Virus record (IMG/VR): IMGVR_UViG_3300020473_000138
Location: 1 to 21,972 of that record
DNA: 21,972 nucleotides
From: a virus
Direction: 5' to 3' (one strand)
How positions within the stretch are numbered: the stretch's first letter is position 1; every line of letters starts with the position of its first letter. A program made the position numbers and the translations under genes. The notes below the pieces were generated by a model. That model was not told where the DNA came from and made no database searches. It saw only the letters and a program-made list of their open reading frames with translations. Of this stretch, positions 2,333 through 17,093 are shown in pieces.

Positions 2333-2874
2333 TGAAATTTTATTCAGTAGATTGTAATTGGAATGAACTTCTTAAAGAAACTGCTAGAGTTTATAAACTT
2401 TGGGAAGGTGTTGTTAAACCTCAAATTCCACCTCATTTAGATTATGATTCTACTCTTTCTAAGAATGCTTACAATCTTATTACTCTCAGCACTCCTTTGC
2501 CAGAGTACTATAAGTTTTGGAGACAGGTATACGAAAACCTTAAAGGGGAATTAGGAACACCTATATGGATACACGCTTGGCTTAATGTACATAGAAAGGA
2601 AGAACTTGGTGTTAAGTCTTTAGAATGGCATAATCATTCTTATGCTGATTATCACGGATTCATTCATATCAGTGATAAAGCTAGTACAACTGAATTTAAA
2701 AATGGTACTATGATACCAAACAATCAAGGTCAGATGTATTTTGGTGACGCTTCATTAGAACATCGTGTAGTTAGTGGACAGTTTGATGGTATTCGTGCTA
2801 GTATAGCGTATGACCTTTTAGTTGATCCTAGACCTGAGCATTTTGGCCAAAACATCTTTGTTCCTATATTATGA
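2332..2874 (+). CDS. 2OG-Fe(II) oxygenase-like protein
   Basis: A 180-residue protein of the putative 2-oxoglutarate/Fe(II) oxygenase type common in T4-like marine phages. The pattern fits a double-stranded beta-helix iron site: WLNVHR near 83-88, a proximal histidine pair H100-N-H102 in WHNHSYADYHGF, a distal histidine H144 in LEHRV, and R155 in IRASIAYDL as the likely 2-oxoglutarate-binding arginine. The expected acidic ligand after the first His is not obvious, so catalysis is uncertain. I chose ATG 2332, which shares TGATG with the methyltransferase stop, over a TTG one codon upstream. The stop overlaps the dam start (ATGA). Being coupled to a DNA methyltransferase on both sides suggests, but does not show, a nucleic-acid substrate; small metabolites or proteins are equally possible. 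Confidence 0.65.
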   Translation: MKFYSVDCNWNELLKETARVYKLWEGVVKPQIPPHLDYDSTLSKNAYNLITLSTPLPEYYKFWRQVYENLKGELGTPIWIHAWLNVHRKEELGVKSLEWHNHSYADYHGFIHISDKASTTEFKNGTMIPNNQGQMYFGDASLEHRVVSGQFDGIRASIAYDLLVDPRPEHFGQNIFVPIL

Positions 2875-3731
2875 AAAAGTTTAAAACACCTCTTAGATAT
2901 CCAGGTGGTAAGTCACGTGCTACTAAGGTACTGCTAGAGTATGTACCTAAGAAGTATGATTATTATGTGGAACCTTTTATAGGTGGTGGTTCTATGGCCA
3001 TTGCTTTGACTAAGATACGTCCTAACCTTAAAGTTACAATCAATGATCTTTACTTCCCAGTGTATGCATTCTGGACTGCGTTAAGAGATGTTGGTCCTCA
3101 GATGCAACAGCACTTGTTTAAAATTAAGACAGACTTATCTGCGTACGATAGCGAAGAAGATATATTAAAAGCACATAAGGATGCATTTGATAAGGCCAAG
3201 GAAAGGTTGAAAGGAAGTGATGACATATACCAAACTGCTATTAACTTTTATATTTGTAATAAATGTTCCTTCTCTGGACTGAGTGAGAACTCTTCTTTCT
3301 CTAAGCAAGCATCTCAATCTAACTTCTCCGTAAATGGGATAAATAGTTTACTGTGGTACTCTCAGGCAATTAGGAATTGGAACATCAAGAATGAGGATTA
3401 TTCTCAGGTAATAAATCCTGATGCGTTTAATTTTCTAGATCCACCTTACAGTATTAAAGATAATCTTTATGGTAGTAAGGGGTCTTTACATAAAACTTTT
3501 TCGCATACTAAGTTGGCCTCTCTCTGTGATGCTTTTGAAGGTAATATGATGATTACTTATAATGCATCTAAGGATATAGAAGAATTATATCCTAAGTTTT
3601 CTAAGTTGAAGTGGGATCTAACCTACACAATGAGGTCAACACAGTCATATGGTGCCGACCAAGACAAGCGTAAAGAACTTCTATTGGTTAACTATACTAT
3701 CAACAACAGTACAGGAGATTGGTACAAGTAA
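2871..3731 (+). CDS. dam: Dam-type N6-adenine DNA methyltransferase (D12 class)
   Basis: A 286-residue alpha-class adenine methyltransferase, close to the usual 260-290 residues of Dam. Motif X is LRYPGGKS (8-15), the SAM-binding motif I is VEPFIGGGS (33-41), an ND pair at 58-59 sits at the end of the next strand, and the catalytic motif IV is LDPPYS (189-194). T4 Dam and bacterial Dam methylate the adenine in GATC. The target here is likely similar, but the recognition region (about 70-180) cannot be read for specificity. The start shares ATGA with the oxygenase gene, and the stop shares TAATG with the next gene. With the beta-class enzyme upstream, the phage encodes two orphan methyltransferases and no visible restriction partner. 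Confidence 0.9.
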   Translation: MKKFKTPLRYPGGKSRATKVLLEYVPKKYDYYVEPFIGGGSMAIALTKIRPNLKVTINDLYFPVYAFWTALRDVGPQMQQHLFKIKTDLSAYDSEEDILKAHKDAFDKAKERLKGSDDIYQTAINFYICNKCSFSGLSENSSFSKQASQSNFSVNGINSLLWYSQAIRNWNIKNEDYSQVINPDAFNFLDPPYSIKDNLYGSKGSLHKTFSHTKLASLCDAFEGNMMITYNASKDIEELYPKFSKLKWDLTYTMRSTQSYGADQDKRKELLLVNYTINNSTGDWYK

Positions 3732-11826: not shown

Positions 11827-12242
11827 CTGAAGAACGTATGATCGTAGATGTCGATCAGTATATGGAGTTTGTGGATCAAACCACAAGTATTCCATCAAAA
11901 AATAATGGTGAGTTTATAGCTCGTATTGCAGAACTAGATAAGAAAGGAGTTGACATCGCACGTCTTATGACTGCTGCTGTTGGTATCAGTGCAGAAGGTG
12001 GAGAGTTTACAGAGATAGTTAAGAAGATTGCTTTTCAAGGTAAGGAACTTACTGATGATGTTAAGTTACATATGTTGAAGGAACTAGGAGATGTATTCTG
12101 GTATTATAGTCAAGCTTGTATGGCACTAGGATTTGATTTCAATAAAGTATTAGCAACTAATATGGCAAAGTTACTTGCTAGATATCCTGATGGAACATTT
12201 CAAGTTGATATGTCTGAGAATCGTAAGCAAGGTGATATCTAA
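11823..12242 (+). CDS. mazG: MazG-like nucleoside triphosphate pyrophosphohydrolase
   Basis: A 139-residue all-alpha NTP pyrophosphohydrolase. The metal-binding motif is complete: E58-x2-E61 in GISAEGGEF, then after 25 residues E87-x2-D90 in ELGDVFWYY. Members hydrolyse (d)NTPs to monophosphates. The cyanophage version was proposed to act on ppGpp, but published biochemistry found preference for deoxynucleotides. The gene shares ATGA with gp41 before it and TAATG with the pyrE-like gene after it, linking nucleotide processing to replication. mazG is frequent in marine T4-like phages and supports that origin. It is a single-domain form, about half the size of E. coli MazG. Confidence 0.9.
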   Translation: MTEERMIVDVDQYMEFVDQTTSIPSKNNGEFIARIAELDKKGVDIARLMTAAVGISAEGGEFTEIVKKIAFQGKELTDDVKLHMLKELGDVFWYYSQACMALGFDFNKVLATNMAKLLARYPDGTFQVDMSENRKQGDI

Positions 12243-12796
12243 TGACCGATCCAGCATACAAAGCAACATTACTCAAACTCATTAAGGAGAGAGCATATAA
12301 GAAAGGTCAGTTTACTCTTTCTTCTGGTCATACAAGTAGCCATTATGTCAACTGCAAACCTGTAACATTATCTTGTGAAGGTAATGCACTTCTATCTACC
12401 TTGATGGTAAAGAAGTTGGATGAAGGGTCTAGAGCAGTTGGTGGTCTTACTCTAGGTGGTGATCCATTGGTTGTTGGTGTAGCACAGAGAGCATTCTATA
12501 AAGGAGGGCACATTGATGCTCTTATTGTTAGGAAGAATCCTAAAAAATATGGTACAAAGGAAGTTATCGAAGGTCCAAAACCTGAGAAGGGTTCTATTGT
12601 CACAGTCCTAGAGGATGTAACTACCACTGGTAGTAGTGCTATGAAGGCGGTTAATGTCCTACGTGATGCAGGTTACGTTGTTAATCGTGTTGTTGCTATC
12701 GTTGATAGGATGGATGATCATAGTATATGGGAAAAGAATAATATACAATTTAGATCCTTATTCACCTTACAGGAAATTATCGATCAAGAAGGATAA
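12242..12796 (+). CDS. pyrE: PyrE-like orotate phosphoribosyltransferase
   Basis: A 184-residue type I phosphoribosyltransferase that would convert orotate and PRPP to OMP, feeding pyrimidine synthesis. The start region FTLSSGHTSSHYVNCKPVTL matches the substrate-binding SGxxSxxYVxxK segment of PyrE. The flexible loop VRKNPKKYGTKEVIEG (96-111) carries the R-K and K-x-x-G residues. The PRPP-binding motif VTVLEDVTTTGSSAMKA is at 120-136 with the acidic pair E124-D125. Its length is slightly below bacterial PyrE (about 210), and the C-terminal arm is short. The start overlaps the mazG stop (TAATG). No other pyrimidine gene is in the window, so it may supplement the host pathway. Orotate specificity is inferred; related phosphoribosyltransferases use other bases. 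Confidence 0.88.
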   Translation: MTDPAYKATLLKLIKERAYKKGQFTLSSGHTSSHYVNCKPVTLSCEGNALLSTLMVKKLDEGSRAVGGLTLGGDPLVVGVAQRAFYKGGHIDALIVRKNPKKYGTKEVIEGPKPEKGSIVTVLEDVTTTGSSAMKAVNVLRDAGYVVNRVVAIVDRMDDHSIWEKNNIQFRSLFTLQEIIDQEG

Positions 12797-12813: not shown

Positions 12814-14001
12814 ATGGCATACAATGTTCTACCAAAAACTTTTGAGGAAGCAGGAAAGGCAGTGAAGCATATGGATAAAGTCCGTGCTTCTGAAGCCCTT
12901 AGATTATTTAATGAACTTAAACATCACTATGGTACCGTAGTACCAGATCCAATTGCATTTGATCCTACTAATAAATCTGTTTGTAAAATCACTCGTCAAC
13001 TAGTAGGAAGTTTTACTATAAGAGATATCAAGTCCAGACTTAAGATCAAAAATTTGCAACCTGATTTTGGTAATGGTAGTAGAGGAAACCGAGGAGCAGC
13101 AAACCAAGGTGGTCTCTTTGAAAGAGAGATGGAGAACTTGCTCAATGATTGGATTGAGAATCCAGATCAGTTAAAAAATAATAAGTATAGACATTTTATC
13201 TTTGGTCTTGTAGATCATTATGGTCTGGAGAATTGTACAGCATTGAGAGTAGTACCTGAAGGTGCTGAGAACAAGAAAAGACCAATGAAAATTGTTAATG
13301 GTCAATGGCAGATAGGTGGTGCCTCACCATCTAAAGGATATAATATTGGTGCAACGGTTACTGACGTAACGTTGGTGACACAGTGTAAGGGGGAGCAAGA
13401 AAGGAATACATATCTGTCATTAAAGACAAGTGGTACCACAAACTTATCTAACTTAGGTCTTAAGACCAACGTGTTTCCTGTAGAACAAGTTAAAGCAGGT
13501 AGTATTACTACTGAAGCAGGACTAGCATTGATTAAAACATTTGGTCTAAAGCAAGATTTGCTTTGTGCTACCTTTAATAACTTTCAAGCAGGTAACCGTA
13601 ACTTCCACGAGATTGATAATTCTCCTAGTTATGATCGTAACTTACTTAAGCAATTGATTAAAGGATCTCTTGGTTGGGGATATCATTATGTCCATTTACA
13701 CAATGGACATATACATCATCTAGAAATTGATGAGAAATTTTTAAATGCTGCTTCCGTTGCGTCAGGTGTCAAAGTGGCATATGGTGGTAACACAGGAGGG
13801 GCAAAACGTGTTAATATAAACTTAACAACACCATTATTGGATATGGCTTTTAATATCAGAAATACATCTGATAAGGGAAGTAAAGCAGATCCAGATCGTG
13901 TGTATCCAGACAAGCTACAGTCAGGATATAAGATGAAAGGTGAAAGCATTATGACTAAATTTCCAGGTGACTCAGAGGAGGACGCACACGATAATGTCTA
14001 A
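12814..14001 (+). CDS. Uncharacterised protein, 395 aa, possible PD-(D/E)XK-like nuclease
   Basis: I do not recognise a named family. Several features suggest a nuclease-like core: a Glu-rich helix GLFEREMENLLNDWIE (100-115), a strand ending in D184 (ATVTDVTLVTQ), and a strand YLSLKTSG (200-207) in which S202-x-K204 could stand for the usual D/E-x-K. This pattern is weak and the key acidic residue of the last motif would be missing. Near 289-306 is a histidine-rich stretch (GYHYVHLHNGHIHHLEID) that could bind metal. Residues 86-100 are Gly/Asn/Arg-rich and probably flexible. It starts just after a late-promoter-like motif and overlaps the next, ligase-like gene by 8 bases, so the two are probably made together. 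A virion or packaging role is an alternative. Confidence 0.6.
   Translation: MAYNVLPKTFEEAGKAVKHMDKVRASEALRLFNELKHHYGTVVPDPIAFDPTNKSVCKITRQLVGSFTIRDIKSRLKIKNLQPDFGNGSRGNRGAANQGGLFEREMENLLNDWIENPDQLKNNKYRHFIFGLVDHYGLENCTALRVVPEGAENKKRPMKIVNGQWQIGGASPSKGYNIGATVTDVTLVTQCKGEQERNTYLSLKTSGTTNLSNLGLKTNVFPVEQVKAGSITTEAGLALIKTFGLKQDLLCATFNNFQAGNRNFHEIDNSPSYDRNLLKQLIKGSLGWGYHYVHLHNGHIHHLEIDEKFLNAASVASGVKVAYGGNTGGAKRVNINLTTPLLDMAFNIRNTSDKGSKADPDRVYPDKLQSGYKMKGESIMTKFPGDSEEDAHDNV
13687..13711. repeat. Perfect 10-bp inverted repeat inside the 12814 gene
   Basis: TATGTCCATT (13687-13696) and AATGGACATA (13702-13711) are exact reverse complements around a five-base TACAC loop. They lie in the histidine-rich coding stretch, so the RNA could form a strong hairpin. 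Whether it has a role is unknown. Confidence 0.6.
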
Positions 14002-15202
14002 TGTAAAGCAACTTAAACACCTTGAACACTTAGAAGATGAAATGTTGAACTATGGTTCTGATGGTTGTGCTGCGTCTGTTGCTTTCTTGAAGGAATTATA
14101 TAAGATGCTTGGTAAGACTGCTGATGCAAGAGGATTTTTACAAACCAAATGGGATGGAGCACCATCTGTAGTATGTGGTACTGATCCTAACAGTGGTATG
14201 TTCTTTGTGGGTACTAAGTCTGTCTTTGCTAAGACTGCACCTAAGGTTTGCTACACAGAAGAGGATGTTGATGTATATTATGAGGGAGATCTAGCAGAGA
14301 AGTTGAAGTATTCTCTACGTTACTTCAGTAAGTTGAACATTAGAGGAGTTGTACAGGGAGATTTACTATACACAGACAGTACTTTAAAGACTGAGACTGT
14401 AGATGGTGAGAAATTATATACGTTTAGACCTAATACTATTACGTACGGAATACCTCAGGAACACGACATAGGTAAAGAGGTCAAGCAATCAAAGATTGGT
14501 GTAGTATTCCATACGCATTACAGTGGTACCACTTTTGGAGAGATGCAAGCAAAAGCTGGTGCTCCTATCAAGACATTCTCACGTGCTAGTGAAGTAGCAG
14601 TCATATCTAACGACACTCCCATCAACGAAGTGACCCTTACGGCTCAAGAATGTACCACTTTTGAGCAATATATTCAACGGATAGATCACCTCTGTGGAAA
14701 CTGTGGGGAATTCCTCGATAATATTGTGGAAAACATTGGAACAACTGGTGAAGCTAAGTGGCACGTTGCTAGTTACCTTAAGCAGTTCTTTAATAGTCAG
14801 GTACGTCAAGGTGTGGCTATAGGCAATCCACGTCAAGCACTTGATAACTTGATAGAGTTCTATCACGAGAAGATGAAGAAGGAACTTGCTAAGATCAAGA
14901 CTCCCAAGACACTTGCAGTTAAGCGTAAGTTAGTATTTGAGAGTGAAGTGTACCTAGATAATAACGAAACTAACTTTACTCAGTTGTTGAAACTCTATAA
15001 AGAGATACAAGATGTTAAACAATTTATTATAGACAAACTAGATCACCTAGAAAGATTCAGAACTTACGTAGAAACTGAAAAGGGATACAAGGTTACTACA
15101 CCTGAGGGTTATGTACTACATCAAGATGGTGATATGATCAAACTGGTTAACCGTCTTGAGTTTGCATACAACAACTTTACTATTCAGAAGCAATGGCGTT
15201 AG
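13994..15202 (+). CDS. Ligase-type nucleotidyltransferase-like protein, 402 aa
   Basis: Not a classical T4 ligase, but it carries the ordered motifs of the covalent nucleotidyltransferase superfamily (DNA/RNA ligases and capping enzymes). Motif I is TKWDG (51-55, K52 as candidate nucleotide-accepting lysine), GTKSVF follows at 73-78, motif III-like is VVQGDLLYT (119-127), motif IIIa-like is IGVVFH (168-173), motif IV is EGYVL (371-375) and motif V is IKLVNR (382-387). About 200 residues lie between IIIa and IV, far more than in known ligases; they look helical and include a Cys pair (CGNCGEF). I chose ATG 13994, which overlaps the previous stop by 8 bases, over ATG 13967. It overlaps the next gene, a nucleotidyltransferase, by 10 bases. 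The substrate is unknown, and it could have lost catalysis. Confidence 0.6.
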   Translation: MSNVKQLKHLEHLEDEMLNYGSDGCAASVAFLKELYKMLGKTADARGFLQTKWDGAPSVVCGTDPNSGMFFVGTKSVFAKTAPKVCYTEEDVDVYYEGDLAEKLKYSLRYFSKLNIRGVVQGDLLYTDSTLKTETVDGEKLYTFRPNTITYGIPQEHDIGKEVKQSKIGVVFHTHYSGTTFGEMQAKAGAPIKTFSRASEVAVISNDTPINEVTLTAQECTTFEQYIQRIDHLCGNCGEFLDNIVENIGTTGEAKWHVASYLKQFFNSQVRQGVAIGNPRQALDNLIEFYHEKMKKELAKIKTPKTLAVKRKLVFESEVYLDNNETNFTQLLKLYKEIQDVKQFIIDKLDHLERFRTYVETEKGYKVTTPEGYVLHQDGDMIKLVNRLEFAYNNFTIQKQWR

Positions 15203-15762
15203 AAAAACTATACGATTGTTGCTTCTTTACCTTTGGTAGGTTCCAGCCACCCACTACAGGACACGAGGAGAATATAAAAGGGGTCAAAACAGCAGCTTCT
15301 AAATGTGACTGGAGGATCTATACATCAAAGACGCAAGATAAAAGTGGTAAGAATCCATTAAAACCAGACAGTAAAGTAGCGTGGATGAGGAAAATGTTCC
15401 GTACCTATGCTACAAACATAGTTGGTGCTCAAAAATCTGTGATTGAATGCTTACAAGACATACAAGCAGCAGGTTATGAGGATGCAACGTTGGTTGTTGG
15501 TTCGGATCGTGTTAATGCATTTCAGTGGATTCATAAATACAATGGTAAGGACTATTATTTCAGGAAATTAGACATTGTTTCCTCTGGTAATCGTGATGCA
15601 GACGGTGATACGTTTGCAATCTCTGGTACTAAGATGAGACGTGCAGCATTTGCTGAAGACTTTCCTACTTTTCGTGCAGGTATTCCAAAAGCATTGAGCG
15701 ATGGAGAATGTATGAAGCTGATGAACGAGATTAAGAGTGCGTTACCATCTAATTTCAAATGA
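15193..15762 (+). CDS. NMNAT/cytidylyltransferase-like nucleotidyltransferase
   Basis: A 189-residue Rossmann-fold nucleotidyltransferase. The N-terminal motif TFGRFQPPTTGHEE (13-26) is the family's G-R-F-x-P-x-T/H-x-G-H signature, with T22 and H24 expected to contact the ATP phosphates. VVGSDR (101-106) is the middle nucleotide-binding strand, and ISGTKMR (143-149) is the C-terminal ISSTxxR motif. Family members join an NTP to NMN, pantetheine phosphate, glycerol phosphate or similar groups; the specificity here cannot be read. It overlaps the ligase-like gene by 10 bases and shares ATGA with the next. In marine T4-like phages such genes are usually labelled cytidylyltransferase or NMN adenylyltransferase. 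Paired with a ligase-like protein, a role in making or using an adenylylated cofactor is possible. Confidence 0.82.
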   Translation: MALEKLYDCCFFTFGRFQPPTTGHEENIKGVKTAASKCDWRIYTSKTQDKSGKNPLKPDSKVAWMRKMFRTYATNIVGAQKSVIECLQDIQAAGYEDATLVVGSDRVNAFQWIHKYNGKDYYFRKLDIVSSGNRDADGDTFAISGTKMRRAAFAEDFPTFRAGIPKALSDGECMKLMNEIKSALPSNFK

Positions 15763-16859: not shown

Positions 16860-17093
16860 ATGAAATCATTTAAACAATTTCGTGTAGAAATAAAAGAGCA
16901 TTTTGAACGTGAGGTTCAAGAGGATTTCCATTTTAATAATGTATTTCTTGAAGGTGACTGGGTGAAGAACACTACCAACGGTAAGTGTGGTAAGGTAATT
17001 CGTCGTGGACCTAACTATATAATAGCACTAGCAGAAGACAACAAGATCTTTAGATCTTGGGTAAAAGATCTAGAGGAGTACTCAGTACTATGA
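16860..17093 (+). CDS. Small hypothetical protein with SH3/KOW-like region, 77 aa
   Basis: The protein starts MKSFKQFRVEIKEHFEREVQ, an amphipathic helix resembling the capsid-targeting peptide of T4 internal proteins (MKTYQEF type). I-K-E at 11-13 fits the L/I-x-E pattern cut by the T4 prohead protease gp21. The rest (GDWVKNTTNGKCGKVIRRGP, then NYIIALAEDNKIFRSWV) looks like a small SH3 or KOW-type beta barrel. No function is certain; a protein carried inside the head is a fair hypothesis. The start follows the previous stop directly (TAAATG) and the end shares ATGA with the next gene. Confidence 0.65.
   Translation: MKSFKQFRVEIKEHFEREVQEDFHFNNVFLEGDWVKNTTNGKCGKVIRRGPNYIIALAEDNKIFRSWVKDLEEYSVL
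17042..17059. repeat. Inverted repeat CAAGATCT-TT-AGATCTTG
   Basis: Eight-base arms are exact reverse complements around TT. A third AGATCT follows at 17066-17071. All lie in the last codons of the 16860 gene, just before the Shine-Dalgarno (GAGGAG, 17073-17078) of the next gene, so a folded RNA could affect its translation. Confidence 0.5.

Follow-up and report, generated by a model that had tools for sequence, protein, structure and literature searches.

What is encoded by the open reading frame (ORF) that lies within the replication cluster, between the genes for the gp41 helicase and the gp61 primase, in the IMG/VR virus record IMGVR_UViG_3300020473_000138? The stretch of DNA analyzed here (hereafter, the window) is this entire 21,972-base record, which comes from a T4-like cyanomyovirus, and the 402-amino acid (aa) protein in question belongs to the family DUF6267, for which no function is provided by Pfam, PHROGs, or NCBIfam. 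The original prediction, made from the sequence of the window alone, described the product as a ligase-like nucleotidyltransferase of a possibly undescribed kind, and undescribed it is: the literature search found no paper naming DUF6267, and the ligase assignment for DUF6267, PHROG_455, or T4-GC 71, as the same genes are variously labeled, is new. The analysis indicates that DUF6267, a divergent family specific to its lineage, very probably belongs to the covalent nucleotidyltransferase superfamily, which comprises the polynucleotide ligases and the RNA-capping enzymes. Within this superfamily, we infer the chemistry and substrate of a 5'-phosphate/3'-OH polynucleotide ligase, with an active site resembling those of the RNA ligases RLIG1 and T4 Rnl1, a reading to which we give a probability of about 0.65.

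The protein matches the Pfam profile of DUF6267 (PF19782) with 422.5 bits against a cut-off of 27, over profile positions 2–376 of 376, and PHROG_455 with 466.9 bits. Both families are listed as being of "unknown function," and the homologous genes in P-HM1 and S-PM2 bear the GenBank note "T4-LIKE GC: 71." The ATG at position 13994 is backed by the homologues, which start with M[AS]NVKQLKHLEH. Translation of 13994–15202 places all the proposed nucleotidyltransferase motifs, namely, K52-W-D-G, VVQGDLLYT (residues 119–127), IGVVFH (168–173), EGYVL (371–375), and IKLVNR (382–387), where the original prediction had read them. The features of the gene are as follows.

13994..15202, + strand: coding sequence, 402 aa, DUF6267 (PF19782)/PHROG_455, candidate covalent nucleotidyltransferase of the ligase family (Pfam, PHROG, AlphaFold2 model)
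14018..14038, + strand: near-invariant N-terminal H9-x-E-H-x-E-D15 (H9, H12, and E14 in 112/112 homologues; E11 and D15 in 111/112)
14147..14158, + strand: motif I, K52-W-D-G, with the predicted nucleotide-accepting lysine (K52, D54, and G55 in 112/112; K52 ends model strand 47–52)
14213..14218, + strand: motif Ia, T74-K75 (invariant, always 23 residues after K52)
14354..14362, + strand: motif III, Q121-G-D123 (Q121 and D123 invariant, within strand 119–127)
14495..14512, + strand: motif IIIa, I168-GVVF-H173 (H173 invariant, strand 168–177; equivalent in position to RLIG1 His195, PMC11494293)
14513..15103, + strand: mostly helical insertion between motifs IIIa and IV, 197 aa, compared with about 125–145 aa in short-form clades (AlphaFold2 helices 217–246, 258–271, 279–299, 304–323, and 325–350; invariant N267 and K342)
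15104..15115, + strand: motif IV, E371-G-Y-V (E371 and G372 invariant, opening strand 372–377)
15140..15154, + strand: motif V, K383-L-V-N-R387, with one lysine, the usual second lysine being valine (K383 and R387 invariant, position 385 V or I, strand 380–385)

One line of evidence for the superfamily assignment comes from conservation. In 112 non-redundant homologues, with identity down to about 26%, K52, D54, G55, K75, Q121, D123, H173, E371, G372, K383, and R387 are invariant (112/112), as are H9, H12, E14, P57, N267, K342, F390, N394, and F395; alignments of 74, 109, and 112 members, the last set including Pseudoalteromonas phage XG4, concur. K52 and E371, on the conservation of which the original prediction had staked itself, are thus unchanged in every aligned homologue. 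The spacings between motifs are nearly constant as well (23 residues from I to Ia, 69–77 from I to III, and 11–13 from IV to V). The order of motifs by itself is unremarkable, a loose regular expression for it matching 129 of 10,000 shuffled ORFs (1.3%), and it is the invariance across homologues that raises the motifs above chance. Among the hallmarks of the superfamily, DUF6267 possesses the conserved KxxG/KxDG lysine, motifs Ia, III, IIIa, and IV in order, an acidic residue in motif III, and the glutamate of motif IV.

The distance between motifs IIIa and IV falls into two classes, 126–145 residues in 65 of the 112 sequences and 172–198 in the other 47. The insertion of about 200 residues that had been proposed is therefore real in the long clade, where it reaches 198, but is not a fixed block; it is a clade-variable helical module, and the residues at catalytic positions are those held by selection. 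The proposed absence of a separate C-terminal domain also stands, given that the protein stops 19 residues past K383 and leaves no room for an OB domain, but this feature does not set DUF6267 apart from all known ligases because RLIG1, too, has no C-terminal RNA-binding domain of the Rnl1 type (PMC11494293).

Structure prediction points in the same direction. AlphaFold2 yielded models with a predicted local distance difference test score (pLDDT) of 87 and a predicted template modeling score (pTM) of 0.81 for the window protein, and of 90 and 0.84, respectively, for a 293-aa short-form relative (L284). In the model of the window protein, K52 lies at the end of a strand, D123 and H173 are inside strands, E371 opens a strand, and K383 is in the next one, so that the motifs are predicted to sit on the strands expected for a ligase-type fold, in the expected order. 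When the L284 model was compared with the PDB using Foldseek, ligases and capping enzymes occupied ranks 1–19 and 39 of the 50 best matches, among them ATP- and NAD+-dependent DNA ligases, RNA editing ligase 1, Naegleria, tRNA, and archaeal RNA ligases, and capping guanylyltransferases, with archaeal and human DNA ligases at the top of the list. A search of BFVD with the long-form model retrieved its own family first and then RNA and DNA ligases at ranks 19, 21, 22, 23, 38, 44, 45, and 46. The same BFVD search raised a protein of PA5oct as a possible relative, which was unconfirmed by profile. The fold retrieved and the placement of the motifs on its strands amount to an indirect test of the expectation in the original prediction that the KWDG lysine and the EGYVL/IKLVNR strands would meet in one pocket. 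Together, the motif invariance and the retrieval of the ligase/capping superfamily by fold support the covalent nucleotidyltransferase interpretation at the superfamily level.

Conventional sequence searches do not link DUF6267 to the known ligase families. Neither phmmer and profile searches of PDB chains, nor Pfam over 74 members, nor NCBIfam retrieved a known ligase or ligase family. Specifically, PF09511 (the T4 Rnl1 family) does not match the window protein at E ≤ 1 and is not among the families listed for the 74 members, PF09414 (the T4 Rnl2 family) matches neither the window protein nor the 74 members, and PF01068 (ATP-dependent DNA ligases) does not match the window protein, which lacks motif VI and the OB domain. 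As a control, T4 Rnl1 searched with phmmer matches only itself among PDB chains, so the absence of sequence matches does not exclude DUF6267 from the ligases. Provisionally, we regard DUF6267 as a new family inside a known superfamily, which, by these tests, is not a member of Rnl1, Rnl2, PF01068, or PF01653.

Several observations weigh against this assignment. The individual PDB matches of the L284 model are each non-significant (best E 0.12, TM score about 0.2), so it is the predominance of one superfamily among the best matches that carries the fold claim; the 402-aa long-form model returned only carbonic-anhydrase noise from the PDB (TM score 0.07), after which the short-form model was used. 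In hhalign comparisons, the DUF6267 profile aligned with that of T4 Rnl1 over motifs IV–V only, in the correct register, with non-significant values (E 0.025, probability 2%), and gave no alignment with the Rnl2 and gp30 profiles. The KxK signature of motif V is missing, its second lysine being replaced by V or I in all homologues, and the acidic residue of motif III is Asp, not Glu. Finally, the usual genomic partner of DUF6267 is an enzyme resembling nicotinamide mononucleotide adenylyltransferase (NMNAT), not an end-healing kinase. A T4-like kinase–ligase repair pair was considered for pelagiphages, in which a P-loop kinase (Zeta_toxin/AAA_33, with a weak PHROG polynucleotide kinase match) is encoded two genes downstream of DUF6267 (HTVC008M, L081:5709-6368), but this kinase has no homologue in 17 other genomes and is not a general partner. 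As for motif V, KxK appears to be usual and not obligatory, RLIG1 having been described with a single lysine there (PMC11494293); the filing of DUF6267 in the superfamily, which draws on the fold and the other motifs, is provisional in this respect.

If DUF6267 is a ligase, its reaction would proceed as follows. K52 would attack the alpha-phosphate of ATP, or possibly NAD+, yielding lysyl-AMP, assisted by a metal near D54, D123, and E371, while K75, H173, and K383 would grip the nucleotide. The AMP would then move to a 5'-phosphate end, from which a 3'-OH would displace it. Substrate binding, in place of the absent C-terminal domain, probably falls to the helical insertion between motifs IIIa and IV. 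We infer that RNA is a somewhat more likely substrate than DNA, for example, in the repair of host-cleaved RNA. T4 Rnl1 repairs RNA cleaved by the host.

The phylogenetic distribution of DUF6267 bears on its role. The family is present in about 470 phage records, nearly all of them from Synechococcus and Prochlorococcus phages; the remainder come from pelagiphage HTVC008M, phages of Methylophilales, and a small number of other phages. Compared as totals of records, with duplicates included and no record-by-record matching, the DUF6267 and cyanophage-type UvsX counts are 371–372 and 374 for phages named Synechococcus, 61 and 61 for Cyanophage, 24 and 24 for Prochlorococcus, 4 and 4 for Methylophilales, 2 and 2 for Pelagibacter, and 3–4 and 8 for those named "Marine." DUF6267 is near-universal in T4-like cyanophages. 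Cellular homologues were considered and rejected: the 18 matches in bacterial and archaeal assemblies look like phage contigs, and the two that were inspected (L406 and L415) carry UvsX- and gp41-like genes alongside. No relatives of the XG4 protein were found in viral contigs.

Known ligase families are mostly absent from the genomes that carry DUF6267. PF01068 was missing from 18 of 19 cyanophage and pelagiphage genomes (the exception being S-CRM01), PF09414 from all 18 such genomes carrying DUF6267, and PF09511 and PF01653 each from 13/13. The controls behaved as expected, T4 and KVP40 matching PF01068, PF09414, and PF09511, and PF01653 matching in 11 of 14 bacteria and archaea and in no phage tested. 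Because these four families are mostly absent, DUF6267 is usually the sole ligase-like protein of its carrier genomes.

This pattern suggests a specific form of the ligase reading, already included in the probability given above, namely, that DUF6267 takes the place of gp30 in T4-like cyanophages as their missing replicative DNA ligase, closing the nicks that arise between Okazaki fragments and in recombination. Clokie et al. (2010) reported that cyanomyoviruses have no homologues of T4 g30, leaving open whether distant homologues exist or the gene is absent, and held absence to be more probable (PMC2984593). The near-universality of DUF6267 where PF01068 is lacking, the position of its gene, which lies between those for gp41 and gp61 in the window and, in many relatives, no more than a few kb from gp41, and the archaeal and human DNA ligases at the head of the PDB list would all fit such a replacement. 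However, the gene lies away from the replication cluster in S-SKS1 and in phages of the P-SSM2 type, the protein has no OB domain or motif VI, its nearest motif logic is that of RNA ligases, and the NAD+-dependent ligase of the host could do the job. Simple substitution is further weakened because a PF01068 ligase accompanies DUF6267 in Pseudoalteromonas phage XG4, Stenotrophomonas phage DLP6, and cyanophage S-CRM01. We consider the replacement of gp30 tentatively, as possible but not preferred.

An alternative to DUF6267 as a ligase arises from the genes around it. The DUF6267 ORF overlaps its upstream neighbor (12814–14001) by 8 nt and its downstream neighbor (15193–15762) by 10 nt, which is an operon-like arrangement. 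The two neighbors are described as follows.

15193..15762, + strand: HIGH-type nucleotidyltransferase, 189 aa, NMNAT/cytidylyltransferase-like (GRFQPPTTGH ... ISGTKMR; CTP_transf_like, 22.5 bits, cut-off 21)
12814..14001, + strand: PHROG_8438 protein, 395 aa, possibly PD-(D/E)XK-like (T183-D184 ... L201-S-L-K204; D184 and S202-L203-K204 invariant in 35 homologues)

The HIGH enzyme matches the NadR-type NMNAT model weakly (E 9e-5), and we take its GRFQPxxxGH and ISGTxxR sequences to be NadM/NadR-like motifs. Its gene is directly 3' of DUF6267 in 79/79 loci of the clade to which the window belongs and within 2 kb in 72/72 S-IOM18-clade loci with room for it; it follows DUF6267 in some HTVC008M-type loci and does not in most P-SSM2/S-SKS1-type loci. 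The two are also found joined. In S-PM2 (NC_006820, 103025-104804; L329), a frameshift splits DUF6267, which is annotated as two genes, the second a cytidyltransferase, and the C-terminal half of DUF6267 shares one frame with the HIGH domain; BFVD contains a 591-aa S-PM2 protein that spans DUF6267 and the HIGH domain. Single ORFs of about 930 aa at L418:312-3101 and L419:1828-4635 consist of DUF6267, with MEGVAM as motif IV, the HIGH domain, and a C-terminal domain with GDVKI.D.QVEVKS, which is PD-(D/E)XK-like by eye.

Such linkage would be explained if DUF6267 were an adenylyltransferase and not a ligase, capping or adenylylating the 5' end of a nucleic acid or another acceptor, possibly with NAD+, while the NMNAT-like partner recycled nicotinamide mononucleotide (NMN); the superfamily does include capping guanylyltransferases. 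We deem this unlikely. No NMN-binding Ia domain of the kind found in NAD+-dependent ligases is recognizable in DUF6267, PF01653 went unmatched in the 13 genomes, phages of the P-SSM2/S-SKS1 type have lost the linkage, and the partner, which has also been called a cytidylyltransferase, occurs in S-SZBM1 virions for which DUF6267 was not reported (PMC9146016). A variant in which DUF6267 remains a ligase and, encoded beside its partner or in one polypeptide with it, joins nucleic acids at the expense of NAD+ in a machine that recharges itself, the ligase freeing NMN and the partner remaking NAD+ from NMN and ATP, is very unlikely.

The HIGH enzyme has been detected in virions of S-SM1 (PMC3037559), S-SZBM1 (PMC9146016), and, as a cytidylyltransferase, S-CREM2 (PMC10665884). 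We considered whether DUF6267 itself is a virion protein and rejected this: the 30 virion proteins listed for S-SZBM1 include the HIGH enzyme (_140) and its neighbor (_139), but the protein encoded by the adjoining DUF6267 gene is not among them (PMC9146016), and DUF6267 therefore probably acts inside the cell. The HIGH enzymes of one clade start with MK[KS]FSAFLTEA... (L170:3914-5074, L172, L205, and about 20 other S-IOM18-type loci, as well as L321 and L318), and two small ORFs of the window, at 16860–17093 and about 17090, start with MKSFKQFRVE and MKTFYQLRQE. These starts presumably resemble the T4 capsid-targeting sequence that is cut off by the prohead protease, and a start of this kind would fit the presence of the HIGH enzyme in virions. 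Ribonucleotide reductase names appear on both partners: the DUF6267 match in metaG-MbCM1 (NC_019443; BFVD H8ZNG8, 728 aa) is labeled "NrdB ribonucleotide reductase A subunit," and a ribonucleotide reductase name is also attached to a small PHROG that matches the HIGH enzyme. These labels are likely a misannotation spreading in cyanophage records.

The proteins encoded upstream of DUF6267 (in the window and at L081, L082, L053, L406, and L430) are mutually dissimilar, and in each an S[LMH]K or ELK signature comes after a conserved Asp; in three groups other than that of the window, the dissimilar upstream genes show an analogous D...S[LM]K pattern. Judged by eye, these proteins are possibly a fast-evolving, nuclease-like (PD-(D/E)XK-like) partner. 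It is conceivable that a possible PD-(D/E)XK-like domain or gene joining DUF6267 and the HIGH enzyme, as at L418/L419 and in many loci, forms a cut-and-seal module.

A further alternative, that DUF6267 retains a ligase-like fold and has lost catalysis, serving, for instance, as a nucleotide sensor or the binding subunit of a multi-gene module, draws on the replacement of the second motif V lysine by Val or Ile, the Asp of motif III, and the partner genes that overlap or are fused to it. This is improbable, given that the acceptor lysine and all other predicted ligand residues are invariant over very divergent phages, a pattern that an inactive enzyme would not be expected to show. Least credible is a coincidental resemblance to ligases on an unrelated fold, for which the chance frequency of the motif order (about 1.3% of shuffled ORFs), the weak individual fold matches, and the nearly empty profile alignment could be cited; against it stand the share of one superfamily among the best PDB matches (39/50) and the invariant motif residues on their expected strands.

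The genes of the window, named from profile matches with some assigned by eye, are all on the + strand and include gp43 DNA polymerase, UvsX, gp41 helicase, MazG, orotate phosphoribosyltransferase, gp61 primase, and the large subunit of ribonucleotide reductase. The orotate phosphoribosyltransferase (12242–12796; TIGR00336, 128.5 bits, over the cut-off) is a phage gene; pyrE was seen in only 3% of the cyanophages compared (PMC9146016). ORFs resembling DNA methyltransferases by eye are at 1397–2332 and 2871–3731 (TSPPYYGLRNYGDEE ... DPFMGSGT; Dam-like FLDPPY), and an HNH-like ORF is at 87–881.

Among ocean viruses, T4-like cyanophages and pelagiphages belong to the most common. If DUF6267 is an RNA ligase, RNA repair, perhaps directed against host RNA-cleaving defenses, would be suggested as a core function of these phages, a function would be given to hundreds of proteins now considered hypothetical, and a compact ligase without the usual C-terminal domain would be added to those known. 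The question raised in 2010 about distant homologues of the T4 DNA ligase in cyanomyoviruses (PMC2984593) can now be put to the test using a single protein and a single point mutation.

Compared with known systems, DUF6267 resembles T4 gp30 and the other PF01068 ligases in the order of motifs and in that archaeal and human DNA ligases are its best PDB fold matches, and differs from them in having no DNA-binding or OB domain, motif VI, or profile match. T4 Rnl2 (PF09414) does have EGYVL at motif IV, as the original prediction stated, and a I–III spacing of 64 residues against 69–77 in DUF6267; it differs in its KIHG, KxK, and C-terminal domain, in the absence of a profile alignment, and in the IV–V spacing, which is 21 residues in Rnl2 and gp30, 13 in T4 Rnl1, and 12 in the window protein. 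Over motifs IV–V, T4 Rnl1 (PF09511) is the closer of the two T4 RNA ligases: it shares KxDG and the pattern EGYVA..DG..FK (EGYVAVMKDGSHFKIK), and its profile is the only ligase profile that aligns in register, although Rnl1 has the motif V KxK and a C-terminal helical domain, and DUF6267 has neither, nor a match to the Pfam family. RLIG1 (C12orf29), a 5'-3' RNA ligase of humans and Yasminevirus, autoadenylates on its KxDG lysine and joins RNA, not nicked DNA; in Yasminevirus RLIG1, the residues described are Lys73 and Asp75 (motif I), Arg89 (Ia), Glu174 (III), His195 (IIIa), Glu240 (IV), and Lys253 (V) (PMC11494293). By these published residue roles, which were compared without a sequence alignment, RLIG1 differs from DUF6267 in the Glu of motif III (Asp in DUF6267), the Arg of motif Ia (Lys), and the IIIa–IV distance (45 residues in Yasminevirus RLIG1 versus 126–198). 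It shares with DUF6267 the KxDG, the histidine of motif IIIa, the single described motif V lysine, 13 residues past the motif IV glutamate (12 in DUF6267), and the absence of a C-terminal domain (PMC11494293). The motif logic of DUF6267 is closest to that of the RLIG1 and T4 Rnl1 RNA ligases, and because it matches RLIG1, including the IIIa histidine and the short step from IV to V, an RNA ligase is our leading guess.

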